A DNA stretch of 27,526 bases from a virus, in the IMG/VR virus record IMGVR_UViG_3300025141_000591, positions 1-27,526 of that record; one strand, 5' to 3'. A model generated the notes under the pieces. It was given only the letters and a program-made list of their open reading frames with translations. It ran no database searches and had not been told where the DNA came from. Positions 5,475 through 26,432 of this stretch are shown one piece after another. The position numbers and the translations under genes are program-made. Every line of letters begins with the position of its first letter. The stretch's first letter is position 1.

Positions 5475-8400
5475 TTACCTCTGGTTTGGCCTGAGTCTAG
5501 AGCCATTAATTAAGAGCTCAGATACCATATCTCGAGCCGCAGCATTTCCTCCTTTTGTGCTAACCACAGGGGCTGCTGTAGATATATTAGGGTGCGTAGC
5601 TAATCTAGAAGACCCCCCCATTTCGGATGAGGATCGTTGAGGGGCATTCATCCTCTCCTGCCCTCTCTGGCGGCGAGACTCTTGTCGTCCTTCCGCAGCC
5701 ACTTCTTGTTGACGTCCTCTCTGGTCGAGGTATCGTCTAGCTGGTGCTGCTGCCTGCGTAAGCCCTCGGCCAAGGGCCCTTAGTCCTGGGGATGAGGCAG
5801 TAGGAAGTCTCCCTGCTTGCTCTGCAAGCCAACCAGCGCCCTCTAAGGTGTCTGCGCCATACCCAACGGTTCCGCCAAGAGCACCGTGTTGGGCTAAGTT
5901 ATAGCCCAAGGCTGCTACATCTGCGACGACTCCCACCTTTCCTGCAACGCGGCCTATATCATCCCAAGGAAGTTCTGCGCCTGCTCTGGCAAGCCTTTCG
6001 AGGGCTTCGCCCGAAACCCTTCCTGCTTCATCAAGCATCTCAGGAGTAATAGGAATTCCACCGAAATTCGTCGTACTATTCAGACCATCTGCTAAATCGT
6101 CCATCATATTGCCTAGCTGATTTGTCCTACCCCTTCCTTGACGTCGTGCATTCCTTGCATCCTGAGCATTCTTTGCATCGATTGCCTCTGCTTGAGCTAT
6201 TTGCCCTGGTGTTGCGTCTGCAGGAATTTCTGTCGGATCTACCCCCACGTATGCGGAACTTGTATCTACATTAGATACATCAACGCCTTGCCTCCTGGCA
6301 TTTCTCCTTGCAAGGGCATCACCCCGGCGGATCTGCTGCTCCACCGCCGCTAACTCCATCTCTAAAGAAGCCCGTTGTACTGCTCCGTGGCCCTGGGGAT
6401 CCCCAGGAAACTCGGTAGGCATGCTAGAGAGCCGTTCTCTGAGCCCATCAAGTTTCTGGCGGGCTCTTCTCGTGAGGTAGCTATCTGTCTCAACGGGAGT
6501 GGAGCTAACAGGAGCTTGCCCCCTTGGGCGTCCTCTGCCCCTCGTAGCAGGCGGGTTTTCTGCTGCTTGTGGGGCTGGAGTTGGCGCGGCGACTTCCTCT
6601 GCCATTTCTGTTAGCGACGGGAATAGGCTTTGCTGAGTATAACCTGTTGGCGCTGCTTCTACCGCCTGAGCAGCAACCGGAGTCGGAGCCTGGGTGGTAG
6701 TCGGAGGCGGTGTTGGTGTCTCGGGGGTCAGAGTAGCTCTCTGCTGTACATCCTGGAGGAGGGCCTGCGTATTCAATCCCCCAGTATCCACTCCTCTATT
6801 CACATTACCAAATTCAGGGCGAAATTGTGGGGCTCTTCCACCATCTACTGGAAGATATAGGTTCTCTGGAACCCCACCCGTAGGGGCTGCTCCTAGAGCC
6901 CCTGACGGAGCTCCCCCTAAAGTATCTTGTGATCCCCCAGGAATCTGTATTCGGAAAGGTTCAGAAGAAATCTCTCCTCCACGTATCGGAGTCACTCTTT
7001 CCCCAGGAAGCTGCCGTTGCTGGTCTAATGTCGAGGAAACAACCTCAGTCGGATATGCTGGTGGGGTCTCAGCCACTCCTCGGGGGCTTCTATCAGTTGG
7101 TATATCAAATTCCTCTGGAAGATCTCCACTGAAACTTCTATCAGTTGGTATATCAAATTCCTCTGGAAGATCTCTTGGTTGGGCGCTAAAACCCTCTGGA
7201 GGAGCATCCCATGCAGAGGGAATTCCATCCCAAGCTGCTCGCTGATCTAAGCTCCTTATCATATCGTCCATACCCTGTGTGTTGAGACGCCTACGATTTA
7301 TATTAGCATTTGCTTGTTGTCCCCGTGCCCAGGCCCGGCTCCCCAGATAGGTACCAGCGCCTGCGGCACCTAGTGCAGCAATGTTTCTCGCCGCATTGCT
7401 CCCTGTGTCCCCACCAGAAGGGGCTCCAGTAGTTTCAGGATCCGCATTAGGATCCACATTAGGATCCGCATTAGGACCCGCATCAGAAGCCAGGTTCTGA
7501 CTTGCAGCAGCAGCGAAGTCGCCTCCGACTTGATTAGAGATCGCAGTATAGGCGTCTGGGTCTGACTGAGGAGTCAGGTAGTGCTGACGGCCTGTTTGTG
7601 GGTGAAGGAAGCGTATAGTCCCATCTTGGTAGAGATGGTACTCATATCCACCCCCACCTTGAGCAACCTGAGTTGCTCCTGCGGGAAGTACGTCAGGCGC
7701 TTGGGCCTGTGTCTGTTCTGGAGCATCGCTGCTTTTTTCCTGTGCTGTGGGGAGGTCTGTATAAGGATTTGGTGTATCTAGTGCTTGGTTCAGCTCTTCG
7801 TTAGAAAGAGTTGGGAATTGCTGTGCCATCTCGGCAAGCAGCTCTTCTCTTCGAGGCCCCGTAAGGTGAGGGAGCGAGTTATCCCACGTCCCCGGCAGCC
7901 TTTCCCCACCCCGCTGTCCTAGTACCCAAGAAGAGGCTTCTGCAAACGGGTCTGGCTCAGAACTTCCTGCTCGACCGCCCTCGGGTTCTGTGAGAAGCTC
8001 ATCCAATTCAGGATCTAACTGAGAACCCTCACCACCCGATGGGGTTTGCCCAGAAAGTGATGGTGCTTGACTTGCAATTATTTTGTCCACGTCCTCTCTT
8101 GAGGTTGCGGGCTCTGCCGCAGGAGTTTCCCCTGATTGGATGGCCCTGACAGCATCCAGTTGAGCAGACATCTCATCTTGCTGGTCTGCCACTTCATCAT
8201 TACGGAATCTAGTCTCTGTGGCCCCTGGTCCATCTAGTGCGCCTAATGCAGACTCGATGGCACTCCCTGCGGCCTCTGGAGTTACTTTAGCAACCTGTGA
8301 GAAAGCGTTTGCGACTTGACTTGTCATCTGCTCTGCAGCACCCGTTGGGCCATCTGCCCCTTCCTCTTGGCTCCAGTCATATGAGTATGGGTCACGAGCG

Positions 8401-9533
8401 GCTTGGCGCATATAATCAGTATAGGCGTCATCCACAAGAGATCGGAGAATGTGGGGGTTTAGGTCGGGCCTTGCTCCCAGCATCCTAGCGACCTCTCGGG
8501 GATTCTCCTCAATTGTATTTACTAGTCTTTGGTAGAGGAAATTTACCGAAGCCTCTGGGTCGGCCCTACCGATGGCCGCTGTAAGGCCGGCCTCTACTAA
8601 TCCCTGCGCACGATCGAGGCCAGGAGAAGACTGATTGACTATTACTCCCCTCTCTTGACCGTATGCTGCGGGGTCGGCCTTTATATCTGCGAGAAGGTTA
8701 CCCAGCATCTCGTATGTCTCTCGTCGAGCTCCTGTCATTCCCCCAGAAATTGACATAAAAGAATCTTCTGCCTCATTAAGGACACGATCGGCGTCTGCAA
8801 CAATGGCCGCATTCCTATTAGCAGCAGAGTTAGATAGTTCCCACATATCGAGTATAGGAGTTTCTCCACCACCCGCATCTTCGCCACGAGCAAGAGCGAG
8901 TTGTCTGACTACAGCCTCCGGAGTTTCACCACGCTGTGTCGCTATCCACGCCATCTCAGCCGCAAATTGGTCTGGGCCGACACGCTCTGGCTGCTGCAGC
9001 TCATTAAATACAGACATGCTATATGGTCTACCGCCGCCCCCGCTTTCTCCAGCGTCCAAGTAGTGTAATGCAGAATTCAAGTCTGCCCATCGTTCGTCTG
9101 GGATGTCACTATAAACATCATTATAAGCCGCTTGTTGACGTTCATGGGCTGCGAGCGCGATATCCCCTTGTGCCGAGATTTGTTGCGCTGCAGTACTCGC
9201 TTGATCGCTTCCAGCCGTATTAGCGATCTCAGTCATCTGCGTAATTATTGTTCCCCTTAGATCGCCCCCTTGGGCGGCTGTTCCGTTAGTCAACTGTTCT
9301 TGGACCTTCGAAATCTCGAGAGTTAAGTTTGCTGCGTCTTGGTATGCTTGTTCTAGGTCATTAGGAGAACCTTCGAGACTTTCCCCTGGAGATTGTCCGG
9401 AGGCTTCTAATCTTCTCGCATCTCTTTGACGTCCTCTTGCTACCTCGAGTTTATGCATGTTATCCCAGACAGGAGAATCTCGGAATTCCTGAGAGACAGC
9501 GGGACGACGATTTCTTCTACTAAAAAGTGGCAT
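5475..9533 (-). CDS. Large low-complexity internal virion protein (T7 gp15-position), 1352 residues
   Basis: ATG at 9533 follows an AGGA about 10 bases upstream; it ends with TAA 5 bp before the giant gene. The N-terminal half is Ala/Gln/Glu-rich and looks helical. A hydrophobic Gly/Ala segment sits near residue 714 (NIAALGAAGAGTYLGSRAW). The middle is Pro/Thr/Gly-rich, probably disordered, with two internal tandem repeats (7087-7174 and 7437-7484). An AT-hook-like core, RGRGRPRGQ, lies near residue 1000. The C-terminal region (about 1197-1300) contains VADVAALGYN and matches the end of the 917-residue protein at 23679-26432. The gene order suggests the middle member of a three-protein ejection set. 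T7 gp15 is 747 residues, so this one is far larger. Function is inferred from context and composition; no enzyme motif is visible. Confidence 0.85.
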   Translation of the reverse strand: MPLFSRRNRRPAVSQEFRDSPVWDNMHKLEVARGRQRDARRLEASGQSPGESLEGSPNDLEQAYQDAANLTLEISKVQEQLTNGTAAQGGDLRGTIITQMTEIANTAGSDQASTAAQQISAQGDIALAAHERQQAAYNDVYSDIPDERWADLNSALHYLDAGESGGGGRPYSMSVFNELQQPERVGPDQFAAEMAWIATQRGETPEAVVRQLALARGEDAGGGETPILDMWELSNSAANRNAAIVADADRVLNEAEDSFMSISGGMTGARRETYEMLGNLLADIKADPAAYGQERGVIVNQSSPGLDRAQGLVEAGLTAAIGRADPEASVNFLYQRLVNTIEENPREVARMLGARPDLNPHILRSLVDDAYTDYMRQAARDPYSYDWSQEEGADGPTGAAEQMTSQVANAFSQVAKVTPEAAGSAIESALGALDGPGATETRFRNDEVADQQDEMSAQLDAVRAIQSGETPAAEPATSREDVDKIIASQAPSLSGQTPSGGEGSQLDPELDELLTEPEGGRAGSSEPDPFAEASSWVLGQRGGERLPGTWDNSLPHLTGPRREELLAEMAQQFPTLSNEELNQALDTPNPYTDLPTAQEKSSDAPEQTQAQAPDVLPAGATQVAQGGGGYEYHLYQDGTIRFLHPQTGRQHYLTPQSDPDAYTAISNQVGGDFAAAASQNLASDAGPNADPNVDPNADPETTGAPSGGDTGSNAARNIAALGAAGAGTYLGSRAWARGQQANANINRRRLNTQGMDDMIRSLDQRAAWDGIPSAWDAPPEGFSAQPRDLPEEFDIPTDRSFSGDLPEEFDIPTDRSPRGVAETPPAYPTEVVSSTLDQQRQLPGERVTPIRGGEISSEPFRIQIPGGSQDTLGGAPSGALGAAPTGGVPENLYLPVDGGRAPQFRPEFGNVNRGVDTGGLNTQALLQDVQQRATLTPETPTPPPTTTQAPTPVAAQAVEAAPTGYTQQSLFPSLTEMAEEVAAPTPAPQAAENPPATRGRGRPRGQAPVSSTPVETDSYLTRRARQKLDGLRERLSSMPTEFPGDPQGHGAVQRASLEMELAAVEQQIRRGDALARRNARRQGVDVSNVDTSSAYVGVDPTEIPADATPGQIAQAEAIDAKNAQDARNARRQGRGRTNQLGNMMDDLADGLNSTTNFGGIPITPEMLDEAGRVSGEALERLARAGAELPWDDIGRVAGKVGVVADVAALGYNLAQHGALGGTVGYGADTLEGAGWLAEQAGRLPTASSPGLRALGRGLTQAAAPARRYLDQRGRQQEVAAEGRQESRRQRGQERMNAPQRSSSEMGGSSRLATHPNISTAAPVVSTKGGNAAARDMVSELLINGSRLRPNQR
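7087..7174. repeat. Perfect 40-bp direct repeat, 48-bp period
   Basis: Bases 7087-7126 and 7135-7174 are identical over 40 bp with a 48-bp period. Inside the 1352-residue gene this encodes two copies of a 16-residue unit containing LPEEFDIPTDRS. The lack of any synonymous difference suggests a recent duplication or ongoing conversion. Confidence 0.95.
7437..7484. repeat. Four imperfect 12-bp tandem repeats
   Basis: Units based on AGGATCCGCATT occur at 7437, 7449, 7461 and 7473; the second and fourth carry one and two changes. They encode an Asp/Pro/Asn linker (NADPNVDPNADP) in the Pro-rich middle of the 1352-residue protein, likely a flexible spacer. Confidence 0.9.
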
Positions 9534-9545
9534 AGTGTTTTCCTA

Positions 9546-10067
9546 TTATCCAAAGAAAGGGAGTAGCAAGGAAAGCCCAAGGCCCGCAATTGCTCCCATG
9601 CTGCGACCCCCCTCTGCTTCCGACCTAAAAGCAGCGTTGTTCAAATCTTTTCCAAGAGATCCAAGCCCAGGGGCCGCAACCTTACCTACAATATCTCCCA
9701 CAAGTTCCATCTTATTTGCTTTAGACTGTTGATAATGAGCCAAAGTCTCTTGGCGCTTCTGCTCTGCAATCTCCGCTGACTGCGCTTCAATCTGTTCTGA
9801 GGCATTGGCCCCTGCTTCTGCAGCAGCCCCGCCCAATTGGAGCATAGCCTTAGTATTCGCACCTTGTTGCATCCCTCCAGAAGCGAGTGCTTGCTGAGAG
9901 AGGTCTTGCTGCATAGCACCGACCTGTTGCCCCGCCATCTCAGTGGCCTTGGCCTTACGCTGATTCTTCTCAGCTTCAGACATCCCAGCAGCCCCCGCTT
10001 CAAGCGAGGCTGCTTGTTTGTCCATAATTTGATCATATTTGAATGGTGATACCGCGCCTATTCCCAT
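9546..10067 (-). CDS. Small internal virion protein (T7 gp14-position), 173 residues
   Basis: ATG at 10067 is preceded by a very strong ribosome site, AGGAGGT, that overlaps the TAG stop of the gene before. The protein starts MGIGAVSPFKYDQIMDKQ, continues as an Ala/Gln/Glu-rich region likely to form long helices (about residues 25-125), and ends in a hydrophobic Gly/Leu tail (AIAGLGLSLLLPFFG). Length and position, directly before two very large internal proteins, match T7 gp14 (196 residues), which forms the outer-membrane part of the ejection channel. The assignment is from architecture and order, not a diagnostic motif. The gene is in the same frame as the upstream 211-residue gene, separated by one TAG and three codons. 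Confidence 0.8.
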   Translation of the reverse strand: MGIGAVSPFKYDQIMDKQAASLEAGAAGMSEAEKNQRKAKATEMAGQQVGAMQQDLSQQALASGGMQQGANTKAMLQLGGAAAEAGANASEQIEAQSAEIAEQKRQETLAHYQQSKANKMELVGDIVGKVAAPGLGSLGKDLNNAAFRSEAEGGRSMGAIAGLGLSLLLPFFG

Positions 10068-10076
10068 GAGAACCTC

Positions 10077-10712
10077 CTACTTGAAATATACATAATCTAG
10101 ATGACGGCACCTAACACGGGAAACCCCAGGGTCAGCCGTATCATACTCCCCTGCAATCCTTAAACTAAAGGAATGCCAGCCCTTCGTCAAGCCCGTTTGG
10201 AGTCGATGCCCAGTCCAAACCCTTCCCCAGTCCCCTCTGAGGCCGGCCGCTGTTTCTGGGAGATCCAGAACGGAAGCATTAGCAACACGAGCAGCACCTA
10301 AAAAAGGACGAATACGAGAAACCGTATTATTTGCTCCTCCCACGCCCTGAGCCTGGAGCGTCCAGCTAAATACGACGAGAGAACAATTATAGGGCAGGTA
10401 GAAATCCTGTGCGGCCCCCGGAATTCCAGCATACTCGAGGTCCTCATCAGAAGAGAAGAGGAACGTTGGTGCCATCTCCATGAAACTATCCATGTTGACC
10501 GTTGCCCCCACTGTTCGGCCCCCAGAACAAGCTCCCCGCTGGATATGAGAAGACTTGATATCCCAGCCAGCAACCCGGTTCACATTCTCTAATCGTCCAT
10601 TGATCATCTCAAAAGAGGCTGTTCCCGCACCATCATCATAAAGGGCGGTAGAGACAGCCGAGCTGCTCAATACATTACCATCAGCAAGTGCGGGGATTGT
10701 GATGTCTGCCAT
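10077..10712 (-). CDS. Putative tail appendage/fibre-like protein C, 211 residues
   Basis: ATG at 10712 has an ideal AAGGAGTAATT leader; the stop is TAG. The short N-terminal part (MADITIPALADGNVLSSSAV, then FEMINGRLENVN) looks like an attachment segment. The rest is rich in Ser/Thr/Val and aromatic residues, as expected of beta-sandwich domains, and ends with GWHSFSLRI followed by VRCRHLDYVYF. That ending resembles the end of the 204-residue protein (SHTVSWAIR, then ALHRELIVLEM), so the genes are probably distant paralogues. Its place between the nozzle and the internal virion proteins suggests a head or tail fibre or adhesion protein. I do not recognise a named family. Confidence 0.75.
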   Translation of the reverse strand: MADITIPALADGNVLSSSAVSTALYDDGAGTASFEMINGRLENVNRVAGWDIKSSHIQRGACSGGRTVGATVNMDSFMEMAPTFLFSSDEDLEYAGIPGAAQDFYLPYNCSLVVFSWTLQAQGVGGANNTVSRIRPFLGAARVANASVLDLPETAAGLRGDWGRVWTGHRLQTGLTKGWHSFSLRIAGEYDTADPGVSRVRCRHLDYVYFK

Positions 10713-10714
10713 AA

Positions 10715-11392
10715 TTACTCCTTAGTACATTGTAGGACTATTCCCGCTAGGGTGCATTCACGAAGATCCGCTCGCATGGTCACTAGGTCTGCTTGCCCTT
10801 GGGTTCCTCCGACAGAAACCACCGCCCGAACTTTCCTGACCGCTGCAAGATCGGCGACGGTAATCAAGGTCCTTATCGGAACATGATGTAATTGGTCCCT
10901 GGCAGCAGCGGCGGTTCCAGCTTGTGTCTCTGAAGACATCCACCGTTCTGTTCGAAGGAGAGGAACCCAAGCTCCCGCCGTAGTAGAGGCCTCAAGCCTA
11001 AAATACGCACCGTTCTGCCAGTCATTCCCGACAGCAAGGTAGAGCCGGCTGATAAAAATATCAGCCAGGACGAAAATTCCACCCAAATCTGCATTGAAAG
11101 TTTGGTCTGACCCAAAGTCGATTTCTAGTGCTGTTCCACCCTGAGTGATCGGGCCCCAAGTACGCGGACTAGTCGCAGAATAGGTATGGATACTAGCCCC
11201 TGGGCCCCCCGTAGCCTGAGTCGCACTAGTCTTAAGTAGTGAGGGAAGGTGAGCGGAATTTAGTGCTCCAGGGGCAAGGGCATCTGCTTCTATGTCATTT
11301 ACCGCGTTTTTTACCCCATCCATAAGATTATTCACGCTTGCCGCATTGAGCGCATCGCCCGGATCCAGGGGATTTAATACTACTTCTGCCAT
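10715..11392 (-). CDS. Putative tail appendage/fibre-like protein B, 225 residues
   Basis: ATG at 11392 is separated from the previous TAG by 1 bp. The N-terminus (LNPLDPGDALNAASVNNLMD, residues 6-25) has the pattern of phage surface proteins in which a short helical start leads into a beta-rich domain. The stretch LAPGALNSAHLPSLL is typical of linkers in phage fibre-type proteins. The C-terminal 150 residues look all-beta and end with an Arg-rich VRKVRAVVSVGG and RADLRECTLAGIVL. Flanked by similar-sized genes on both sides. The role as a virion appendage is inferred from position and composition. Confidence 0.75.
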   Translation of the reverse strand: MAEVVLNPLDPGDALNAASVNNLMDGVKNAVNDIEADALAPGALNSAHLPSLLKTSATQATGGPGASIHTYSATSPRTWGPITQGGTALEIDFGSDQTFNADLGGIFVLADIFISRLYLAVGNDWQNGAYFRLEASTTAGAWVPLLRTERWMSSETQAGTAAAARDQLHHVPIRTLITVADLAAVRKVRAVVSVGGTQGQADLVTMRADLRECTLAGIVLQCTKE

Positions 11393-11393
11393 A

Positions 11394-12008
11394 CTACCTC
11401 CGCATCTCTAATACAATCAATTCCCTATGGAGGGCAAAGATCCAAGAGGCATTATACTCTCCAGGAGTACCACGGATTGCCCAAGAAACTGTATGGGACC
11501 CAGAAGACACAGGGAGCACGAGGGTAGTAACAACGGGAAGAGACATCCTTAAATTCCCAGGAGCGCCGTCGTTCCCAACATCCCCCGCGCCTATTATTGT
11601 ATCCTGAACGACCTGCCCATCCACCATTATGGCAACGCTATAGGAAGTTAGTAATGGAACCCCAACCATCGCGGCAGTCTGAGCTGATAGGTGTATCCAC
11701 AAAAGTGTAGTGGGACAGTTGAAGGTAATTCGACTGTCCGTTACCTCCAGCCAAGAATTATTGCAGGGAACCGCATATGCGTTGGTATAAGGATACACAG
11801 AAAGATCACAAACTACAGCTGACTGCCTCCAAACAAAACTAGCGTTGGGTTCGCAGTCTGCTATAGAAGAAATCGCAGCTGCCCTCCAATTATGCTCATT
11901 TAATTGGCCACTAAGTTCCTCGGCTGCGGGGCGAATGCCCTCATTGAGGTTCTCAGGGGTTACTGTTTGCCCAGTAGAGACTATGTGTTTAGGGAATCGC
12001 CAACTCAT
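11394..12008 (-). CDS. Putative tail appendage/fibre-like protein A, 204 residues
   Basis: The start ATG (12008-12006) overlaps the TGA stop of the nozzle gene as ATGA, which implies translational coupling. The N-terminus reads MSWRFPKHIVSTGQTVTPEN, then LNEGIRPAAEELSGQLNEHN, a helical segment of the kind that docks small phage appendages. A beta-rich domain follows with Cys at several positions (CDLSVYPYT, VPCNNSW, NCPTT). It ends GSHTVSWAIRGTPGEY and ALHRELIVLEMRR. First of three tandem genes of similar size. Likely a fibre or nozzle-tip protein; no specific family recognised. Confidence 0.75.
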   Translation of the reverse strand: MSWRFPKHIVSTGQTVTPENLNEGIRPAAEELSGQLNEHNWRAAAISSIADCEPNASFVWRQSAVVCDLSVYPYTNAYAVPCNNSWLEVTDSRITFNCPTTLLWIHLSAQTAAMVGVPLLTSYSVAIMVDGQVVQDTIIGAGDVGNDGAPGNLRMSLPVVTTLVLPVSSGSHTVSWAIRGTPGEYNASWIFALHRELIVLEMRR

Positions 12009-14107: not shown

Positions 14108-14109
14108 CC

Positions 14110-14403
14110 TTAGTTCCCTTTCTTTTTACTCTTTTTCTTAGAGGGGGTAGTTGGGAGCGGGAGAACATTCTTTACTTCTGTTGCTGGCTTAGATAGGATC
14201 GTCCAGGGCATAAGATCTTCTCCGCCCTCTTCGAATCTTTCGAAAGCTAGTCCGAATCTTCGGAACAGGCCGAGAACCTTTCCATTCTCTTCGACGCGAG
14301 CGAGGCAGATCGCCTGCTCCTTACGATCGCCTGCTTCTTTCTGGTAGACGGCTCCAGCAATTATTTTTACTGGCTCTACTATTGTATCTGTATCATCTTG
14401 CAT
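14110..14403 (-). CDS. Small protein with basic Lys-rich C-terminus, 97 residues
   Basis: ATG at 14403 with AAGGA about 8 bases upstream; stops 2 bp before the nozzle gene. The protein has a compact centre (VKIIAGAVYQKEAGDRKEQA, then LARVEENGKVLGLFRRFGL) that could be a small beta-barrel, and a tail of about ten residues, SKKKSKKKGN, that is almost all Lys and Ser. A basic tail could bind DNA or the acidic inner surface of the portal channel, but this is a guess. I do not recognise the family. Its place between adaptor and nozzle suggests a minor neck component. Confidence 0.65.
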   Translation of the reverse strand: MQDDTDTIVEPVKIIAGAVYQKEAGDRKEQAICLARVEENGKVLGLFRRFGLAFERFEEGGEDLMPWTILSKPATEVKNVLPLPTTPSKKKSKKKGN

Positions 14404-14424
14404 TTTATTTCCTTGTTGGGAGGA

Positions 14425-16005: not shown

Positions 16006-16021
16006 CTGGGACCTCTAAAGT

Positions 16022-16055
16022 AAAAAGGCTCCCCCCTCACGAAGAGAGGGGAGCC
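16022..16055 (-). terminator. Intrinsic terminator after the capsid genes
   Basis: On the minus strand GGCTCCCCTCTC (16055-16044) pairs with GAGGGGGGAGCC (16038-16027) around the loop TTCGT, a 12-bp stem with one G-T pair, followed directly by TTTTTA. It lies between the decoration protein stop and the adaptor start, so it would end or reduce transcripts of the abundant head genes. Confidence 0.85.
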
Positions 16056-16084
16056 GGAATTAGCTCGCTAGAACTAATCTACGG

Positions 16085-16558: not shown

Positions 16559-16572
16559 TTTAGTCTCCTATA

Positions 16573-17646: not shown

Positions 17647-17676
17647 GTTATTTTTCCTTATGGATTAGGTAGTGAA

Positions 17677-17690
17677 GGGGAGAATTCCCC
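17677..17690 (-). other. Short hairpin between scaffold and coat genes
   Basis: The minus strand reads GGGGAATTCTCCCC, a 5-bp GGGGA/TCCCC stem with a 4-base loop, in the 49-bp gap before the coat gene. It has no T-run, so it is not a terminator; it might be an RNA-stability or processing site. Confidence 0.25.
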
Positions 17691-17695
17691 GGTTG

Positions 17696-18625
17696 TTATC
17701 CCCTGCCTCCACCATGCACAGTTAAGGCACGACGAGCAGCGAGAGTTCTCATCTCATCTAATGAAGTAGCATCTTTCATACCAGCCTTAGCCGCTTGGGG
17801 CTGCGCTGATCTGACGGCACCATTGGTGATCTTCGCTGCAGTTCGTGGAGCTTTAGCTTTCTTTTGCTCCTCCACTAACTTTGCTGCGACCACCATTTGG
17901 TCTTCAGTAGGTTGAGATCTAGCTTCCGTCAACTTAGCGTGTGCCTCTGCTAGTTGAAATGCGTATTCATCTGCGACACCGTTTTTCTTGGCGTCAACAG
18001 CAATTTTCTGGACTTCCTCGGGCATATCCATCAGCCTTACAGCGAGGTATGCGTCCCAGGCACCTCCGTGTGGGCCCCCTTCGGTCAAGAACTCTGCGAA
18101 ACGATTTAGTTTTTCTGTGTCTTGAGAAAGTTCAGCATGCTCTTCCCAGAATTTCTCCACATAGGTGGTTGCGTTATTCCTTTCATATGCCGATAGTTGG
18201 TTCTGAAGCTCCTTATTTCTAGTCTCCAGAGTCCCATACTCCGTTCCCTTCGCATCATACTGTGTTTGGAGATCTGATAATTGACCAGTTAGTTGGCCTA
18301 TTCTAGGGTCTTCTTCATCGTTCAGCATTGCAGCATACATTGCGCGAAGATTATCTAGTTCTGAAGCACGTTCCTGGTATTTTGAATCATAGCGACTATT
18401 GAGGGCAGTCGCAGCAGACCGGTATTGCTCGGGAAGGTCATCAATCTTACCACCCCATCCGTCCCAATCTACTTCGGGCCACCCCTCGTCAGAGCCTGAG
18501 GAGGCTGATCCGACGTTAGCAACAGGACTGGGCCCGGAAGTAGAAGGGGATTCTGTGGTAACGGGGGCGGTTTCTGCGCCTCCTGCTGGTGTAGAGACGG
18601 CGGTTGGGGCGCTGACTTCTGACAT
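17696..18625 (-). CDS. Scaffolding protein, 309 residues
   Basis: The start ATG overlaps the stop of the acidic protein as TAATG. The first 50 residues are Ser/Thr/Pro/Ala-rich and probably disordered, followed by DEGWPEVDWDGWGGKIDDLP. A strongly heptad-like helical region follows (about residues 75-160, for example ERASELDNLRAMYAAML and LETRNKELQNQLSAYERN). The C-terminus is basic (KKAKAPRTAAKITNGAVRSA, and TLAARRALTVHGGGRG), as in scaffolds whose basic end binds the coat protein. Position between portal and coat agrees. High Glu/Gln/Ala content and predicted coiled coil make this a confident call. Confidence 0.8.
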   Translation of the reverse strand: MSEVSAPTAVSTPAGGAETAPVTTESPSTSGPSPVANVGSASSGSDEGWPEVDWDGWGGKIDDLPEQYRSAATALNSRYDSKYQERASELDNLRAMYAAMLNDEEDPRIGQLTGQLSDLQTQYDAKGTEYGTLETRNKELQNQLSAYERNNATTYVEKFWEEHAELSQDTEKLNRFAEFLTEGGPHGGAWDAYLAVRLMDMPEEVQKIAVDAKKNGVADEYAFQLAEAHAKLTEARSQPTEDQMVVAAKLVEEQKKAKAPRTAAKITNGAVRSAQPQAAKAGMKDATSLDEMRTLAARRALTVHGGGRG

Positions 18626-18975
18626 TATTTCATTGCTCGCTTAGCGGCTTCTTTACCCATAAGTCCGATATCGAACCCGAACCCTTCAGGCTCGAGATCT
18701 CCTTCTTCCTCTTCTTCAGAACTGAATTGTCCTAAGAGGTCTTGAAGCTCTTGTTTATATTGTTCACCTTCTGGTGTAGTTGGTTGCCAACCATCAGCGA
18801 GCTCTTGGGCTCCTGATTCGAGAGAGGCTGGTCCGGCATCGATTGCGATTTCTGTGACTTCGATATCGGCATCGCCTTCGGAAGGCTCTTCAAGAGCTTC
18901 GTCCATTGCTCCTTCGTCAAGTACCTCTGTCTCTTCTTTTTCTTCATCGTCTTTCTCAAAGGGGAATCCGGCCAT
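18625..18975 (-). CDS. Small, highly acidic protein before the scaffold, 117 residues (116 aa plus stop)
   Basis: I choose the ATG at 18975 (MAGFPFEKDDEEKEE), which has GGAG about 9 bases upstream; a longer TTG start at 19026 lacks such a site and would overlap the promoter. The protein is very rich in Glu/Asp (for example SSEEEEEGDLEPEG) and ends KEAAKRAMK. It overlaps the scaffold by TAATG. Such acidic proteins might mimic DNA or aid portal or capsid assembly. No family recognised. Confidence 0.65.
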   Translation of the reverse strand: MAGFPFEKDDEEKEETEVLDEGAMDEALEEPSEGDADIEVTEIAIDAGPASLESGAQELADGWQPTTPEGEQYKQELQDLLGQFSSEEEEEGDLEPEGFGFDIGLMGKEAAKRAMK

Positions 18976-18997
18976 TATTTTTCTCCAGGTTACTAAG

Positions 18998-19026
18998 TTT
19001 CTACCTAAATGGTAGTCATCAGTCAA
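18998..19026 (-). promoter_or_regulatory. Sigma70-like promoter upstream of the capsid genes
   Basis: On the minus strand TTGACT (19026-19021) and TAGAAA (19003-18998) are separated by exactly 17 bp. TTGACT has five of six consensus bases and TAGAAA four of six. It lies in the 60-bp gap between the zinc-ribbon gene and the acidic gene, giving a transcript through scaffold, coat and decoration genes up to the terminator at 16022. No extended -10 seen. Confidence 0.4.
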
Positions 19027-19035
19027 CTATTTTTT

Positions 19036-19455
19036 TCAGACTTGTACCTTAGCGCCCTCATTCTTACAACGCGCTTCGTTTGCTTTTCTTATCTTTGTCT
19101 TACTCTTCCTATCCGCATGGTCAGTAAAACCCAGTTTTTTAGCTAGGTTATCCGCCTTTTCATGCGCTAAATCTCTATGCTTAATAAATGAAGAATCATT
19201 CGTAGCTACAATAGCACGTTCTGGATGCTCCTTGAAATATTTATCCATTTGAGACTTACTTGTAAACTTTCGACCGATTTGTTCGATTACTAGCGGGTGG
19301 TCTTCACTAGGTCCGATTGTCCTAACTGCTTGTATGACAGTCTCGGCCCTCTGTCCGCACTCATCACACATCAATCCTTGTTCTAGGTAAGCCTGCATGG
19401 TGAGGAAATATGTCCTCTCTCCATGGACTTCACATCTTCCAGTATATGTTGGCAT
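19036..19455 (-). CDS. Zinc-ribbon protein (FmdB-like N-terminus), 139 residues
   Basis: ATG at 19455, 30 bp after the portal stop. The start MPTYTGRCEVHGER, with Cys-8 and His-11, and MCDECGQRAE, with Cys-30 and Cys-33, form a treble-clef or ribbon-type zinc site (C-x2-H and C-x2-C) like the FmdB family, common in phages next to portal genes. The C-terminal half (for example SKSQMDKYFKEHPERAIVAT, ADNLAKKLGFTDHADRKSKT) is Lys-rich and helical and might bind nucleic acid. It ends in TGA. Its role is unknown; regulation of late expression or a structural minor protein are both possible. Confidence 0.75.
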   Translation of the reverse strand: MPTYTGRCEVHGERTYFLTMQAYLEQGLMCDECGQRAETVIQAVRTIGPSEDHPLVIEQIGRKFTSKSQMDKYFKEHPERAIVATNDSSFIKHRDLAHEKADNLAKKLGFTDHADRKSKTKIRKANEARCKNEGAKVQV

Positions 19456-19485
19456 TCTTCTCTCTTAGTTGGGGTAAGTAAGGAA

Positions 19486-21252
19486 TTATCCTGGCATCGG
19501 AGCAGGGTGCCCTTCTCCTCCGACTCCCATCGGTGGGATCGGGACTTCTGCGCCTTCTGGAAGCGCCCCTGTTGCAATCGTATCCTGCCCTTGTTGAGGG
19601 CCTGGAGTTTGCAAAGCTGCCTGTGCCTGCTGCGCTTCTGCCTGGGCCATCTCTGCTTCAGCTTTAAGTTGTTGCTCATCTTTTAGGATATCTTCCATCT
19701 GTAATAACTCAAGGAGCTTCCTTACAAGTCCCTGTTGATCCACATTTGGAGCCTGTGAAAGCAATGGGAAGAACTGCTGGACGTTCTTAAGCTGAACTAG
19801 TTTGTTATTTTCTGTTGGAGAATAAGGTACTGCCATGTAGTCATATTCTAATGGTTCCTCACCCTGGGCCGCGAGGATATCTCTTGCCTGCATAGATTGT
19901 CTAGTGATCTCGAGTACTTGGGGATTTGAAAGAAGCCTAACGGGTAGGATTTCATCATCCGCAAGGAATTCTTCATAGAGCCCAATGATGGCTTGTGACT
20001 CCCAACCGATGAGGTCGTAGACCTCTTTCTGGCGTCGACCATTCCTAGTTCTTGTCGCGGTATCTGCGAGAGCTACTTCCGTAGCTACGTCAGCTACTCC
20101 AACCGCACCACGAGAGTACTGCGGGATGCCCAGGATGAATTCGATTACCTGGATACATCTATCCCTAGCCGCTACAAACTCCGGGTTGAGGGTTGGAGTC
20201 TGGGTATGGCCGATGATATCGCTAATCGAGGCATTCGCTTTCCCTGCTATCTCAACGATAGAGCCCGGGGTTGTGGCGTCTCTAAGCTGGGACCTGACTC
20301 TCTCTGGGTTATCGCAAAGCCCAGAGTTGAGCAGGGTAATCGGGATACTGGTCTGGGCAAACCAGAGCATAAGAGTATCAAGCTCGTTCAATCTCTCCAG
20401 AACAGGAGCAATAAGAGATACATCAGACAGACCACCGATATCAGAAAGGTTGTCGTTGAAAGTAAGCCTGTAAAAAGGATTACGAACAAAGCGGTAAGGT
20501 AGTTCTCCACCGAAAAGGGGCTCCTCTTGGTCCTCAAGGTAGTGGTAATAGGCACCATCTCCGGAGAAATCATATACTTCATAAACAGTTACCCACTCGA
20601 ATACTTCCTTTGAGGAATCATTTAGGAGGGATTTATCTGAGTGCTGGTCTTTCAACCATTCCGGGAATGACCCAAATTGTGCGCTCTTAGCTATTTCTGG
20701 GTTATATGCTCGATCTTCCTTACCTTTACCTTGAGTCCGTGAGTTAAAGTCCTCACGGGTAAGGACTGTGACTTCTACAAGATACCTGATATCTTCCCAA
20801 CGCATGACACTCATATCATACCAAACGTATCTTGGATCAATAACGAGGAAGTCAGGAGAGCGTTTACGGAAATTCCAAACGGTCTTTACGAAAGACCTCG
20901 GGTAAACAGCAGCCATGGTAGCTGCCCGCCAGAGAACGCGGTGCCCAGCGATACGATTGAAAGTGTCGTTGACGAGAGCTTCTCTATACTTTGCGGCCTC
21001 ATGTAGCTGCTTCTTCCTGGCGTTTACCGTAACCTCAGGATTATTAGGACAGATATTAGCAACCATCGTATCAACGAAAGCATAGGGGTAGTTAGTCTCC
21101 ATGACTAATTCATCCCGATCAATATCATCAGCAGAACCCCAGGCTTTACTGGTGTACCAACTCCTCACCTTATCCCACTCTTTCTGATCGATGTGGGCTT
21201 TAGCCCTGTGGGTTTCTATGAGTCCTCTGATCTGCTGCTTAGTTAACGCCAT
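19486..21252 (-). CDS. Portal protein, 588 residues
   Basis: ATG at 21252 overlaps the upstream gene by 10 bp and has AAGGA about 8 bases upstream. The N-terminal half has portal-type features: ETNYPYAFVDTMVANICPNN (start of the wing), then the R-rich helix LHEAAKYREALVNDTFNRIA, a DPRYVWYDMSV segment, and the helical middle (LERLNELDTLMLWFAQ) that lines the channel. The C-terminus is Ala/Gln-rich, coiled and then Pro/Gly-rich and flexible (MGVGGEGHPAPMPG). Position two genes after TerL and before the scaffold and coat supports this. Confidence 0.85.
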   Translation of the reverse strand: MALTKQQIRGLIETHRAKAHIDQKEWDKVRSWYTSKAWGSADDIDRDELVMETNYPYAFVDTMVANICPNNPEVTVNARKKQLHEAAKYREALVNDTFNRIAGHRVLWRAATMAAVYPRSFVKTVWNFRKRSPDFLVIDPRYVWYDMSVMRWEDIRYLVEVTVLTREDFNSRTQGKGKEDRAYNPEIAKSAQFGSFPEWLKDQHSDKSLLNDSSKEVFEWVTVYEVYDFSGDGAYYHYLEDQEEPLFGGELPYRFVRNPFYRLTFNDNLSDIGGLSDVSLIAPVLERLNELDTLMLWFAQTSIPITLLNSGLCDNPERVRSQLRDATTPGSIVEIAGKANASISDIIGHTQTPTLNPEFVAARDRCIQVIEFILGIPQYSRGAVGVADVATEVALADTATRTRNGRRQKEVYDLIGWESQAIIGLYEEFLADDEILPVRLLSNPQVLEITRQSMQARDILAAQGEEPLEYDYMAVPYSPTENNKLVQLKNVQQFFPLLSQAPNVDQQGLVRKLLELLQMEDILKDEQQLKAEAEMAQAEAQQAQAALQTPGPQQGQDTIATGALPEGAEVPIPPMGVGGEGHPAPMPG

Positions 21253-21524
21253 AATTTATCCTTCTGGTTTGGGGCCAGTGATGGTCTAGGGGGAAGTGGT
21301 CCTTCCTCGGGTTCTCCCATCGGTTGCCCAGGAGCGGCCGGGGGAGTAGGGTCTATCTGAAGTGGTGCTGCGGTGCCTTCTTGTGCAGCATTCGTATTGT
21401 CTGAAATTGGATTCCCTTGTGCCTGTGCCTGTGCTTGCTCTAGAGCCCGGAGACGTATCTTCGCGATTGCACTCCTGCGGAGTTGCTCAAGCGTAAGTGG
21501 CACACCTTCGGGGACTGATGGCAA
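21243..21524 (-). CDS. Small Pro/Ala/Gln-rich protein after an in-frame amber codon, 93 residues
   Basis: The only plausible start is TTG at 21524, with AGGAATAGGAA just before it; no ATG is available. It lies in the same frame as the 140-residue gene, separated by TAG and one GAA codon, so it may be a readthrough extension rather than an independent gene. It has a helical segment (LTLEQLRRSAIAKIRLRALE) and Pro-rich regions (LQIDPTPPAAPGQP). It overlaps the portal start by 10 bp, so it could be translationally coupled to it. Function unknown. Confidence 0.55.
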   Translation of the reverse strand: MPSVPEGVPLTLEQLRRSAIAKIRLRALEQAQAQAQGNPISDNTNAAQEGTAAPLQIDPTPPAAPGQPMGEPEEGPLPPRPSLAPNQKDKLWR

Positions 21525-21527
21525 TTC

Positions 21528-21950
21528 CTATTCCTCGACCTTATTCCATGTACCAACGCTCGAGCGGGGAGGTTGGGGGCGAGCCCGCCTTGCTGGTTGG
21601 GCCTCCACAGTTTGGGCGCGTTGGGGTGCTGCGCGTTGGGGTGCTGCGCGTTGGGGTGTGTTGGGGGGCGAGCGGATAGGTTCTAGAGTAGGCTCTGAAA
21701 CTAAGTTCGGCGGAGGAGTATTATGCCTCTCTCCAGGGAGGCTAGGCCGGCGACCTTCTTCAGCATCTAACGCTTGATACTCTGGGCTTGCATCATTCCA
21801 GCCATCGGGAAGCCTGTTGAGGATATCTGCTACCCTTGCTCGATCCTCAACAGGTGGGGTAGCCGAACGCATTGGGTCTAAAGGCATATCGTGTTTCTGT
21901 AGGGCACTTCTTGCCGCACCTTTTCTTAGATCACTGAGATATCCTGGCAT
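21528..21950 (-). CDS. Small Pro/Arg/Gln-rich protein after TerL, 140 residues
   Basis: ATG at 21950 overlaps the TerL stop as TAATG and has a very strong GGAGGAG leader inside TerL. The N-terminus is basic and helical (MPGYLSDLRKGAARSALQKH), the middle mixed (VEDRARVADILNRLPDGW), and the C-terminus is Pro/Arg/Gln-rich with three tandem PQRAA units. It ends in TAG, then the same frame continues. No known family recognised. The position between TerL and portal suggests a packaging or head-vertex accessory. Confidence 0.65.
   Translation of the reverse strand: MPGYLSDLRKGAARSALQKHDMPLDPMRSATPPVEDRARVADILNRLPDGWNDASPEYQALDAEEGRRPSLPGERHNTPPPNLVSEPTLEPIRSPPNTPQRAAPQRAAPQRAQTVEAQPARRARPQPPRSSVGTWNKVEE
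21616..21660. repeat. Three tandem 15-bp repeats
   Basis: Unit GCGCGTTGGGGTGCT occurs at 21616, 21631 and 21646; the last copy ends GTG. It encodes PQRAA units near the C-terminus of the 140-residue protein. The first two copies are identical. Confidence 0.95.
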
Positions 21951-23677
21951 TACTTTCTCCTCCTGATTGAGCGATACGCGGGTTTCTTCCTAGTAGGAGT
22001 AATATCCGATTTGAGTGCTTCGCGGTATTTTTCTTGTTCCTCATAACTCATACCAGAAAACATCACGATGTTCGAGTCTTTTTCTTTTTTCTCTGCACCC
22101 GGTTTGGTTCTTACAGGAAGATCCCTAGCGCATACTACAGCCATTATCAAGGCAGATACTTTATCCCAGTGATGTCGATCACGACGTTTATTAGAAGAAC
22201 CGCCCCGTAAAACCTCAGAAGAAGCACCCTCTTCGACGCTCTTATCATTCTTATATGTCTGCATCTGGGCAACGGTGTCCTTATCGTTGAATACTAGCTC
22301 ATCTAGGAGCCCTTCGATCAACCAACCCGTTGCTTTATCCAAAGACTTCGCTGTTGAGGTGAATCCTGCCTTAAATTTGGCCTCATAGAAGAGATTCGAG
22401 TATTCTCGCTCATTCAATAGGGCAATAACGGCTTGCCCGACCCCATTTGACTCAACACAGATCCGAGCGTTATTATATCGCTTTGCTGTCCGAATAATCT
22501 GGTTTGTGAAGGATAATGGGTCTACATGCTCTGCATATACAGCAACTTGCGTCCATTCTCCGTCCCAACACTTCAATACTTGGAAAGAAGCATGGTCTCG
22601 AGCCGCATAACCGCAGGGATCGACCCCGATTGCGTAGATTGCCCCCATTTCTGGCGGTTCATACTCCGCATATGGCCCAGTCCACTCGATATGCACCTGT
22701 TTTAGGTGCTTTTCAAGGGCCCGGTTGGGTATTGCCGCGTTTGTGGCCGCAATCCAGCACGTCATGTCGTCGAATGGGTACATTACCCCGAACATCTCGG
22801 GATTTTTCCGTACTTCTGGGTCGGTATCCATGATGAAACGGCGGAATGCTAGGTTTTCTGCTGCTAATCCGTCTGCTTGGTACCTATTTAGAAGTTCAAT
22901 CTCCTCATTCGTAGGTATAAAGTCCTTTGTGACTGGTCTGACGTTGAGTTTGCCGTCCCAAAACGGAAAAAATACAGCCCTATGTCTACCAGAGCCCGCC
23001 TTTGCCATCACATAGTGCTCATGCCAAGCACAATTCTGCTCCCAAGGGGTAGCCTCAAAGATAACTAGAGCCTCTTGCCTGTTAATAAGCGACGGGTTGA
23101 TGAGGAACATAGACCCATTGAAGTCTGACCAGAGGTGGCACTCGCTTGCGTGGAAGGAATCAGGTGACTGACCAACACCTACAGCCCCAGATTCTGCGGA
23201 GAGGATACGCATCTTCCCCCCTTGGAGCCCGTTGAAGGTCAATTGGCGGCTCTCTCGGCCCGCAATAGTCTTAGATCTGATCTGTTCCGGCCACCTTTGA
23301 TGCAAATGGTGGACCCTCTTGTGCAAATAATCCGCACGATCTCTATTATCCGCAATACAAATGTGATCCCAGCCCGGGATGTACGCGGCCTTGCAGTACA
23401 TAGCGTACTCTATGGACAGCGATTTACCTGCCTGACGATAGGCGAGCAGTGTAAGGAACTCTGTTTCTCCTGTAGGCAATCTTGGAGGATTACTCACATA
23501 ATCAAGAACAGTATTCTGAAGCTCATGTGTGATCTTCGTAGGACTATACTTTGTGAACCTACCCGTCTTCTGATCATGTACCTCACCGAATGCTGGAAGA
23601 GCATGCTTCGGAGAACGGAGAGTGTTCAGTAACTGAGCGGCTTGTTTTAGTTTGGGAGTAGTTGGGTTACTCGCCAT
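21950..23677 (-). CDS. terL: Terminase large subunit, 575 residues
   Basis: ATG at 23677 lies one base after the stop of the previous gene, with GAAGGA upstream. The N-terminal ATPase has a Walker A variant YRQAGKS (residues 80-86), the Walker B region SFHASECHLW with catalytic Glu-179, and a coupling motif FEATP (208-212). The C-terminal nuclease has AIGVDPCG (Asp-353), ARICVESNGVG (Glu-409) and DRHHWDKVSALIMA (Asp-500, Asp-505), the three acidic clusters of the RNase H-like fold. All key motifs are intact. It drives DNA into the procapsid through the portal encoded downstream and cuts the concatemer. Length is normal for the family. Confidence 0.93.
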   Translation of the reverse strand: MASNPTTPKLKQAAQLLNTLRSPKHALPAFGEVHDQKTGRFTKYSPTKITHELQNTVLDYVSNPPRLPTGETEFLTLLAYRQAGKSLSIEYAMYCKAAYIPGWDHICIADNRDRADYLHKRVHHLHQRWPEQIRSKTIAGRESRQLTFNGLQGGKMRILSAESGAVGVGQSPDSFHASECHLWSDFNGSMFLINPSLINRQEALVIFEATPWEQNCAWHEHYVMAKAGSGRHRAVFFPFWDGKLNVRPVTKDFIPTNEEIELLNRYQADGLAAENLAFRRFIMDTDPEVRKNPEMFGVMYPFDDMTCWIAATNAAIPNRALEKHLKQVHIEWTGPYAEYEPPEMGAIYAIGVDPCGYAARDHASFQVLKCWDGEWTQVAVYAEHVDPLSFTNQIIRTAKRYNNARICVESNGVGQAVIALLNEREYSNLFYEAKFKAGFTSTAKSLDKATGWLIEGLLDELVFNDKDTVAQMQTYKNDKSVEEGASSEVLRGGSSNKRRDRHHWDKVSALIMAVVCARDLPVRTKPGAEKKEKDSNIVMFSGMSYEEQEKYREALKSDITPTRKKPAYRSIRRRK

Positions 23678-23678
23678 C

Positions 23679-26432
23679 TTATTCCTTCGGAGCTAATGCG
23701 CGGCGTACCGCCTCATTTCTAGCTTCTCTCTGTTGTGTTACTCGGTCTGGAGTATTCTCCCTAATCCGCGCTTCCCTTTCCTGCCATCTTCTGTATGGGC
23801 TAGCGACCCGAGTAATCGCATCTCCTACCGCAGAGAGATTGCCCAGGGGAGTGCCCAGTGTGCGATCATGACCTGTAAGCATCTCAGCTCCCGCCGCTGG
23901 TGCCCGAAAGATTGATCCTACTCCTTCGATAGCTTCTGCGCCCGTCCTCGTGAGACCGCGCAAAGGATCCCCCTCTTGAACAGTGTTGTATCCAAGTGCA
24001 GCTATTTCTGCCGCTGTTCCTAGGGTCTCGAGTCCGCTTCGAATTCCGCTTCGAATTCCAGCATTCCTGAGCATTCTCGCCCGGTTAGCCTCTTCAGTAG
24101 CTCTTGCTGCCGCTGCATTTCTCGCAGCAGTTAGGCTCCCTGGGGGGCTCCTTTCCCCAACTGGAGGTGGCGGGGGAAGGTCATCAGATCGAGGAACCAT
24201 TGTTGATCCCCTCGCCTGTAGATCTTCTGGGCCCTGTGCACCTCCTATTTCTCCTGGAGAGAATAGTTCTTGCTGTGCTGGATGAGGGCCCTGGCGGGTG
24301 GGCGGACTTTCTGGAGTAGGCCTATTCGTAAATCCCTCAACTGCATACCCTTGCCTCTCGAGCCTTCTAGGTCGTTCAAGGGCATCAGGGAATTCCTCTG
24401 GGGGGAACATCGGGTATTGGCCTGCTACGTCCGCAACCTCAGTAACTGCTCCCACCCTAGATCTCCCCCCTTGGGAAACACTTGCAATAATTTGTTCAAC
24501 ATTCTCGGGTTGGGGTACGCCATACATCTCTGGGATAGGACGAAAAAGGTTTGGGTCGTCTGGAACTATCTCAAGAACTGGTACTCGCCCACCCAATTGT
24601 TCCGAGAGTTCTCGGAGTTCGTTGTCCCAGTGCATCCCCCCTGCTGGTGGGTTCGAAACGATTCCCACAATCCTAGGTTCTCGGAGGACAGCCTCTGAAC
24701 TCCCTGTTAGTTGATCCGCTGACATAGCAAAGGGATGACTAGTCGAGACTGCTCGAGAAACATAGCGCCTCCCCTGGCGGGGAAGCCCCAGATCCAGTCC
24801 TTCATATGCGGGGAAAGTCCATAGGTTACCTTGCCCGATATAGCTAACGTCTCCCTCGAGGAGAAATCCAACTCCTCTGTGACCTAGAGACATAGTGGGG
24901 TTTCTGGGGATTGTCGCACCTTTAGGAAAGACACGGGCACTAATTTCCCCCCCGAGATACCTCCCATCAGGTGCTTCCGCTAACAAATCAGAAGCCCCCT
25001 CTAGAGTAGACCAATGAATATATCGGTTTGAGCGCACAAACTCAGGCTCTACGGAATTATTCCAGAGGGTTTGCATGTCCTTTGAACGGCGTGTGGCAGC
25101 AAGACGTGACTCCCTATGCTGGGGCATACCTACTGGCTGAGGACGCCCTTTTCTGTCGATGGCGGCATCGCCCTCTTGGGTAAGGTAGCCCCCCTGCTCC
25201 AAAGGTAATTGTTGGCGGACATCTATTAGCTCCTCTTGAGAGAGTCCGCCCTCTTGGAGCCTGCGATGCTGACGATGATATGGATTGGACTCTCTAGTAG
25301 AAGGATCTACGGAGGGGATACTTCTATTGTAAGGATCATCGTAATCACTGATTCTTTCCCTTAGCCATCGGTCATTCTCTGGGGAAGCCTGCCCATAATC
25401 AATGACAGCTTCCCTGTAAAAAATGTCGAGCGCCTCAAGTTTGTCACCCGCGTTTGGCCCTCCTTCCCTCCTGATCCTTTCTATTACTCTCGGAATAGCC
25501 TCTTCAGCGTACCCCCAATTTGTGGGCCCTTGTGGGACTTGTGTACGCCAGTCACCAGTCCGCTGATATGATGGGTGACTACGGAGATAGGGGCTTAAAA
25601 CATCCTCCGATAGAGTCTCTGGGATCTGAACCCCAAACTCTCGAAGTTGTTCTTGTAGAGAACTAGGAGATTCAAAGCGGATCACGGACTCGCGACCGAA
25701 TTCGATGTCTTCTGCGTTTCTGAAGAACTCATCCGATTCGACTATGGTGTGGATAAGTTTCTGCGCCCGCTGTCGAGGGTGGGCGAAAGAACTTTCTGGC
25801 GCATCTACTATTTCTTGGAGAACCTGCTGGAGGGGGGGACGATAATTCGGAGACCGATAGACCCTTCCAGTGGGAAGGTCGTTTGGGCGATAATCCTCCC
25901 CAACCGGGACGTGCCAAGCAGCGTCTGGCTTTACCTCGCCACCACTTGCTACTCGCCTGTCAGCCAGGATGCGAACAGGAGACTCTGGGTCAACCAGACC
26001 CTCCAGCATTTCGGGTGTAATGTCCCGGCCACGGTCAATAGCACCATGACCAAACATATGAACTGGCACAGGGGTGTCAGGAGCGATCTCATTGATCGCC
26101 ATCATTCGACCACGGCCTTCATGATTGCGAACCCTGAAGCTTCCCGCATCAGCCCCTTCTGTAACCAACTCAACATCCAAAAACGGGGGGCCGATACCTT
26201 GACCCTCTTCGATGGCTTGGCGTGTTGCTGCCATCGCGCCAGCGGCCTGCCTTGCAGGTCGTGGAGGATTGAGCCTTAGGAAGTCTTGCGGTTTCATCCA
26301 GACCACGAAGCCCTTATAGGCAACATTAGTGTTGTCGGGAACATTCCCCAACCCACCCATCGAGTCAAAGAGCACCCGACCAACCCGCACTTGTCCTTCG
26401 TAGGCAGCAGACTCTAGGGGGATATCTGGCAT
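23679..26432 (-). CDS. Polyvalent-type protein with ParB-like domain, upstream of TerL, 917 residues
   Basis: ATG at 26432 with AAGGAG just upstream. The N-terminal ~160 residues include FVVWMKPQDFLRLNPP, GIGPPFLDVELV and VRNHEGRGRMMAINEIAP (about residues 101-118). This follows the pattern of ParB-like domains in phage polyvalent proteins, usually with HEGRHR. A middle region (about 465-620) begins SNRYIHWSTLEGASDLLAE and contains GVGFLLEGDVSYIGQGNLWT and VSTSHPF; I cannot assign it. The last ~115 residues (AAEIAALGYNTVQEG, then VASPYRRWQEREARIREN) match the end of the 1352-residue protein. I infer a virion-associated or injected protein. Neighbours are the terminase and a possible small terminase. 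The fold and activity of the ParB-like part are not proven. Confidence 0.75.
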   Translation of the reverse strand: MPDIPLESAAYEGQVRVGRVLFDSMGGLGNVPDNTNVAYKGFVVWMKPQDFLRLNPPRPARQAAGAMAATRQAIEEGQGIGPPFLDVELVTEGADAGSFRVRNHEGRGRMMAINEIAPDTPVPVHMFGHGAIDRGRDITPEMLEGLVDPESPVRILADRRVASGGEVKPDAAWHVPVGEDYRPNDLPTGRVYRSPNYRPPLQQVLQEIVDAPESSFAHPRQRAQKLIHTIVESDEFFRNAEDIEFGRESVIRFESPSSLQEQLREFGVQIPETLSEDVLSPYLRSHPSYQRTGDWRTQVPQGPTNWGYAEEAIPRVIERIRREGGPNAGDKLEALDIFYREAVIDYGQASPENDRWLRERISDYDDPYNRSIPSVDPSTRESNPYHRQHRRLQEGGLSQEELIDVRQQLPLEQGGYLTQEGDAAIDRKGRPQPVGMPQHRESRLAATRRSKDMQTLWNNSVEPEFVRSNRYIHWSTLEGASDLLAEAPDGRYLGGEISARVFPKGATIPRNPTMSLGHRGVGFLLEGDVSYIGQGNLWTFPAYEGLDLGLPRQGRRYVSRAVSTSHPFAMSADQLTGSSEAVLREPRIVGIVSNPPAGGMHWDNELRELSEQLGGRVPVLEIVPDDPNLFRPIPEMYGVPQPENVEQIIASVSQGGRSRVGAVTEVADVAGQYPMFPPEEFPDALERPRRLERQGYAVEGFTNRPTPESPPTRQGPHPAQQELFSPGEIGGAQGPEDLQARGSTMVPRSDDLPPPPPVGERSPPGSLTAARNAAAARATEEANRARMLRNAGIRSGIRSGLETLGTAAEIAALGYNTVQEGDPLRGLTRTGAEAIEGVGSIFRAPAAGAEMLTGHDRTLGTPLGNLSAVGDAITRVASPYRRWQEREARIRENTPDRVTQQREARNEAVRRALAPKE

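Follow-up and report, generated by a model that had tools for sequence, protein, structure and literature searches.

How proteins are selected for loading into the head and for ejection is known for very few phage systems. In T7, the ejection (internal core) proteins gp14, gp15 and gp16 are encoded in that order after the tail genes. The capsid targeting sequences of T4 and of the giant phages are short signals, common to several internal proteins, which are located at the N-terminus and cleaved by a prohead protease. Cargo fused to the scaffold gets packaged in engineered P22 particles. The scaffold of P22, gp8, has a coat-binding helix at its end. It is attached to the shell through its coat-binding domain, and the ejection proteins are assembled together with it (PMC12005531). 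The phage polyvalent proteins, including P1 DarB/DdrB and those with an ART-PolyVal domain (PF18760), are large, multidomain, variable between lineages and encoded next to virion genes in terminase-portal phages; their packaging and injection were predicted (Iyer et al. 2017, PMC5512222), and the parts of that paper used here describe neither a constant C-terminal delivery module nor a scaffold-like tail for them.

Gene order of the window and its putative ejection-type proteins

The window, which is the whole 27.5-kb virus contig that was analysed, belongs to an uncultured phage of the short-tailed type, and all of the features described below are on its minus strand. In the order of this strand, a gene fragment (27034-27525) and a 176-aa TerS-like gene (26434-26964) are followed by P0002 (917 aa, 23679-26432), the putative variable cargo gene. 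The large terminase gene (TerL, 21950-23677) comes directly after it, before small genes and the portal. After the portal come a zinc-ribbon-like gene, an acidic 133-aa gene (18625-19026), a putative scaffold of 309 aa (17696-18625) directly upstream of the major capsid gene, and the major capsid gene. Tail-type genes, a 173-aa gene, P0001 (1352 aa, 5475-9533) and P0003 (1-5469, at least 1823 aa and cut by the contig end) complete the order.

PHROG matches were obtained for the portal, capsid, terminase and some tail-type genes. Searches of Pfam, PHROGs, NCBIfam and INPHARED gave no convincing family for P0001, P0002 or P0003, no relative of the three was found in annotated phages, and a PDB search with P0003, the module described below and the middle domain of P0002 gave nothing convincing. 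The 176-aa TerS-like gene had a weak match to the Pfam family fvmX1 (E=0.002, below the cut-off), and genes like it precede the terminase in many relatives.

Comparison of the last three genes with gp14, gp15 and gp16 of T7 showed the same position after the tail genes and the same order of sizes (173 aa, 1352 aa and more than 1823 aa). P0001, which lies between the 173-aa gene and P0003, is the positional orthologue of proteins of 789 to 1193 aa which, in relatives, are encoded directly before the P0003 family. Orthologues of P0003 of 1947 to 2421 aa were found in four relatives (E<=1e-94), with weaker matches in two more. P0001 and its positional orthologues have in common a central domain (residues ~628-674, 7512-7652), and a profile of this domain made from five orthologues found P0001 at E=3.3e-6. 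We therefore call P0001 gp15-like, or ejection-type, by position only; unlike the T7 proteins, it has no detectable sequence similarity to catalogued phage proteins, and no known internal virion protein was matched by it in PHROG, Pfam, NCBIfam or INPHARED. The last ~50 residues of P0001 were considered as a counterpart of the orthologues' tail, since PNIS..A....TKGG is alike in both and E=0.002 was reached once, but tail profiles missed P0001, so the likeness is tentative.

A module common to P0001 and P0002

The initial annotation had described P0001 and P0002 as proteins of 1352 and 917 residues that carry the same module at their ends, and both ORFs were found as described, on the minus strand. 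The results of our comparisons showed that residues 1194-1277 of P0001 (5703-5954) match residues 799-893 of P0002 (23754-24038) with E=4e-7, the composition-adjusted BLASTP alignment itself, a single comparison, covering residues 1200-1277 and 804-892 at 36% identity. The alignable length is ~80-90 residues. In P0001, the module consists of an apolar Gly/Ala helix, a HG-ALGGT-GYGA-LEGAGWLAE block and a basic helix ending in AAPARRYLDQR; its most specific part in the family is HG.L.GT..YGA...EG.G.LA. The placement at the protein end holds for P0002, in which the module is near the very end and is followed by a terminal helix, while in P0001 ~75 residues follow the module and this terminal helix is absent.

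Convergent composition of Gly/Ala/Arg helices, with no homology between the two proteins, was weighed as the source of the likeness. The module is biased in composition, and its full profile gave a spurious-looking PDB match to an alcohol dehydrogenase (E=8e-4), which shows the risk of chance matches. However, every composition-controlled test rejected convergence. The Smith-Waterman score of P0001 against P0002 was 116, compared with 38.9 +/- 7.1 for shuffled sequences, and none of 5000 shuffles scored as high. HHalign of P0001 against a profile of nine homologous modules from P0002-type genes, from which P0001 was left out, gave a probability of 93 and E=3.3e-7. A core profile, also made without P0001, scored P0001 at 30.3 bits (E=1.5e-7) in an hmmsearch of ~7,500 ORFs, when the next ORF outside the family reached 10.0 bits, the best reversed ORF 11.5 bits and the best of 2000 locally shuffled copies of P0001 11.6 bits. 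With an ungapped block of 23 columns, P0001 scored 29.7 bits, the next ORF 14.9 bits, and none of 20,000 shuffles reached the score of P0001. The motif is moreover position-specific, which argues against mere convergence; we consider this explanation highly improbable. Neither of the outcomes that would have spoken against the initial observation, a missing HHalign signal or an effect of composition, was thus obtained. The similarity is real, and it defines a helical module of ~90 residues. As related phages have this module at the unchanging end of a variable, probably head-borne cargo protein (see below), it is likely a delivery tag and not a chance resemblance.

The two copies had been proposed to stem from an old rather than a recent duplication, and their age was borne out at the DNA level. 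The AALGYN codons are GCA GCC TTG GGC TAT AAC in one copy and GCT GCA CTT GGA TAC AAC in the other, and blastn of the two module DNAs gave no alignment above chance. The codons differ throughout, so the copies are old.

The properties of the helices bear on the suggestion, made in the initial annotation, of a membrane-active segment. In the form in which we weighed it, an apolar helical hairpin of the Gly-zipper kind and a basic amphipathic helix would insert in the host envelope during ejection and help P0001 and the cargo to cross. In its favour are an all-helical prediction, the succession of an apolar Gly/Ala helix and a basic helix whose hydrophobic moment is high (0.4 to 0.84 across copies), and the location of P0001 at the position of the T7 trans-envelope ejection proteins. 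However, the maxima of hydropathy over 19 residues were about 0.6 to 1.3, below the transmembrane level in all copies (Kyte-Doolittle means for the first helix of 0.8 in P0002 and 1.27 in P0001), and the conserved polar or charged positions (HG, EGTG) are atypical of a membrane helix. We judge membrane insertion unlikely. Docking is preferred, without firm proof, because the first helix is not transmembrane-like, a basic amphipathic helix follows it and AlphaFold predicted helices of low confidence for the module (pLDDT 58, pTM 0.34).

The variable locus upstream of the terminase

Relatives were collected with the terminase as anchor. Ten contigs with terminases of 54-80% identity were found, an alignment of these ten added ~50 contigs with identities down to 38%, and the capsid protein added a few. 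The module ends the gene upstream of TerL in eight relatives (G002-G008 and G011), in which it directly adjoins TerL or is separated from it by one small gene. Each of these eight has one copy, and two copies were present only in the window among the 44 records searched. When viral contigs were scanned with the module as query, known contigs only, or none, were returned.

Comparison of the module-bearing genes showed that their N-terminal parts vary while the module end is constant. G003 and G011 have a common front and G005 and G007 another; the G004 gene has a segment that looks GNAT-like by eye, with a weak match to a PHROG of polyvalent size; and the G008 version, of 221 aa, has little besides the module. 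This constancy of the module, set against changing fronts, gives the locus the pattern that would be expected of variable effectors with an unchanging delivery end, and its products probably travel within the virus head. The slot upstream of the terminase has no gene in some of the more distant phages and is occupied by other proteins elsewhere, among them one with an ART-PolyVal domain. This protein, encoded at L046:1229-2278 directly upstream of the terminase (PF18760, E=5e-23), ends in a different hydrophobic helix rich in Gly and Ala. Another related phage has a gene with the same domain at L002:5993-12352 (E=9e-26).

P0002 itself is made of two separately shared domains and the module, and no Pfam domain was recognised in it. 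Its residues 4-200 (25833-26423) constitute a domain that recurs in another phage, within a polyvalent protein of 2120 aa, the identity over the first 200 residues being 63%; the 2120-aa protein also has an ART-PolyVal domain. The HEGRGRMMAI motif of this region suggests a ParB-like fold; as a candidate for its identity, ddrB-ParB (PF18763) had no match at E<=10. The second domain, at residues ~450-642 (24507-25085), is also present in the cargo genes of G002, G003 and G011, in a weaker form in the last two. The ART fold has catalytic residues of the H-Y-E type, and H47 and E154 of the fragment are invariant in the four sequences. Its AlphaFold model (pLDDT 59) had Tpt1 (E=0.2) and DarT (E=0.85) as best Foldseek matches, both non-significant, so that a weak likeness to ADP-ribosyltransferases is suggestive only.

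P0002 resembles the polyvalent proteins (as described in the parts of PMC5512222 used here) in being large, putatively multidomain, lineage-variable and encoded beside virion genes, adjacent to TerL in the window as in the eight relatives. One of its domains occurs in an ART-PolyVal-bearing protein, and an ART-PolyVal protein occupies the same locus in L046. Unlike the polyvalent families, P0002 matched no Pfam polyvalent domain. We propose that the cargo would be of the phage-delivered polyvalent kind, with a scaffold-like tag in addition. The location of the gene between the 176-aa TerS-like gene and TerL would also agree with a non-virion accessory of the terminase or of DNA packaging, the module then serving as a protein-protein contact during packaging. 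However, the N-terminal parts vary like effectors, with domains of the ART and GNAT types among them, and the slot has no gene at all in many related phages, which makes an accessory role improbable.

The module was absent from all six of the orthologues at the P0001 position that could be read to their ends, a further difference between P0001 and the T7 proteins. This bears on the claim of a common docking or packaging signal, of which docking is compatible with our results while head loading by the module is weakened. A module that acts as the head-loading signal of all capsid-interior proteins would explain why cargo proteins that differ elsewhere all end in it, and the T4 and giant-phage targeting sequences are a precedent for such signals. 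However, the six orthologues presumably still enter the virion, so that proteins of this class can be loaded without the module, and a separate helix of scaffold type, described below, is a better candidate. We give this role of the module little probability, and retain docking as the preferred one.

In the tree of the module copies, the P0001 copy groups with those of P0002 and G002 (support 94/93), on a long branch; P0001 and P0002, two presumed virion proteins, thus carry old, divergent copies of one module. The grouping is consistent with an origin of the P0001 copy by old duplication out of this lineage's own cargo gene, although it may also have been transferred from another phage. A better description of the module is that of an unchanging C-terminal part in an otherwise variable family of cargo proteins, of which an ejection-type protein has received a copy. 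Two block matches of 14-15 bits on proteins at the P0001 position in L037 and L038 were rejected as low-complexity chance. P0001 also has, at residues ~717-745 (~7299-7385), a second Gly/Ala helix (NIAALGAAGAGTYLGSRAWARG) that is like the start of the module; the module profile detected no copy there.

The scaffold-like terminal helix and a proposed loading system

The tail of P0002, REARNEAVRRALAPKE (residues 902-917, 23682-23729), resembles DEMRTLAARRAL, with which the putative scaffolding protein ends. This 309-aa protein, for which a family match was not found, is presumed to be the scaffold from its position and helical character alone. Nearly all of its ~45 homologous ORFs have a C-terminal R..AA..A[LFMV] motif, and a PSSM was built from 31 of these scaffold C-termini. 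The results of this PSSM showed 42 matches of at least 12 bits on non-scaffold ORFs, compared with 7 in shuffles; 34 were on the coding strand and 5 on the other, and 29 of the 34 were near an ORF end, when ~54% was expected. Among the carriers are cargo genes, neighbours of the terminase gene and the gene that precedes the scaffold, which ends in MRNNAASKAM or MRNQAASNAF in relatives. In the window, P0002 scored 14.0 bits, and weaker versions were found at the N-terminus of the 140-aa gene downstream of the terminase (LRKGAARSAL, 6.7 bits, 21528-21950) and at the end of the acidic 133-aa protein (GLMGKEAAKRAMK). The codons of the helix differ between carriers, so the motif is one of the protein level. 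It is short and rich in Ala and Arg, some cargo copies (G002 among them) lack it or have a weak version, it is absent from P0001, and co-variation of the cargo helix with the scaffold helix of the same phage was not significant (p=0.09).

Judged from these sequences, the helix is a better candidate for head loading than the module, and we distinguish two signals, of which the helix would likely serve for head loading and the Gly-rich module likely for docking onto the ejection apparatus or passing through it. This proposal follows from the co-assembly of scaffold and ejection proteins in P22 taken together with the predicted packaging of polyvalent proteins. The cargo would consist of interchangeable, probably host-directed front domains, the Gly-rich helical module and, in most cases, the short scaffold-like helix. 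The R..AA..AL helix would bind the coat, or the scaffold layer, as the scaffolding protein does, so that the cargo co-assembles into the procapsid; the module would dock the cargo onto the internal core or ejection proteins, or carry it through them; and the docked cargo would leave the head and enter the cell with or before the DNA. P0001 would have acquired its own module from a cargo gene by old duplication or transfer, as would fit a self-associating helical docking unit.

We infer virion location, coat binding, docking and ejection, and we hold the chances about even that the product of the terminase-upstream gene is a polymorphic cargo protein of the virion which works by this two-signal mechanism. 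We put forward more tentatively, as somewhat less probable, that, throughout this group of uncultured phages, a copied coat-binding helix of the scaffold serves as a plug-in address label for otherwise unrelated cargo, that a second, Gly-rich module links this cargo to the machinery of ejection, and that cargo and ejection proteins exchange their modules. A natural two-part tag on a variable cargo locus, if true, would give a readable rule by which phage-delivered effectors could be found in metagenomes, and would offer a loading system that can be tested directly.

As in T4 and the giant phages, a short terminal signal would be common to several internal proteins; in contrast to theirs, the helix here is mostly C-terminal and resembles the terminus of the scaffold itself, and no protease gene was identified. 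The likeness to P22 gp8 is a helix at the scaffold end, for which coat binding is predicted here. Whereas P22 cargo was engineered, natural cargo genes appear, from sequence, to bear the scaffold-like helix.

The R..AA..AL helix also recurs at the N- or C-termini of unrelated genes between the terminase and the scaffold in many related phages (L003-L092). One of these loci, L092 (CP070713.1, 1910464-1932077), with a terminase of 67% identity, is inside the chromosome record of a Myxococcales MAG and is possibly a prophage and a clue to the host. The score of the P0001 central domain on its cargo gene was not above that of shuffles and this match was rejected. Strong scaffold-like helices were present on three ORFs near the L092 terminase.
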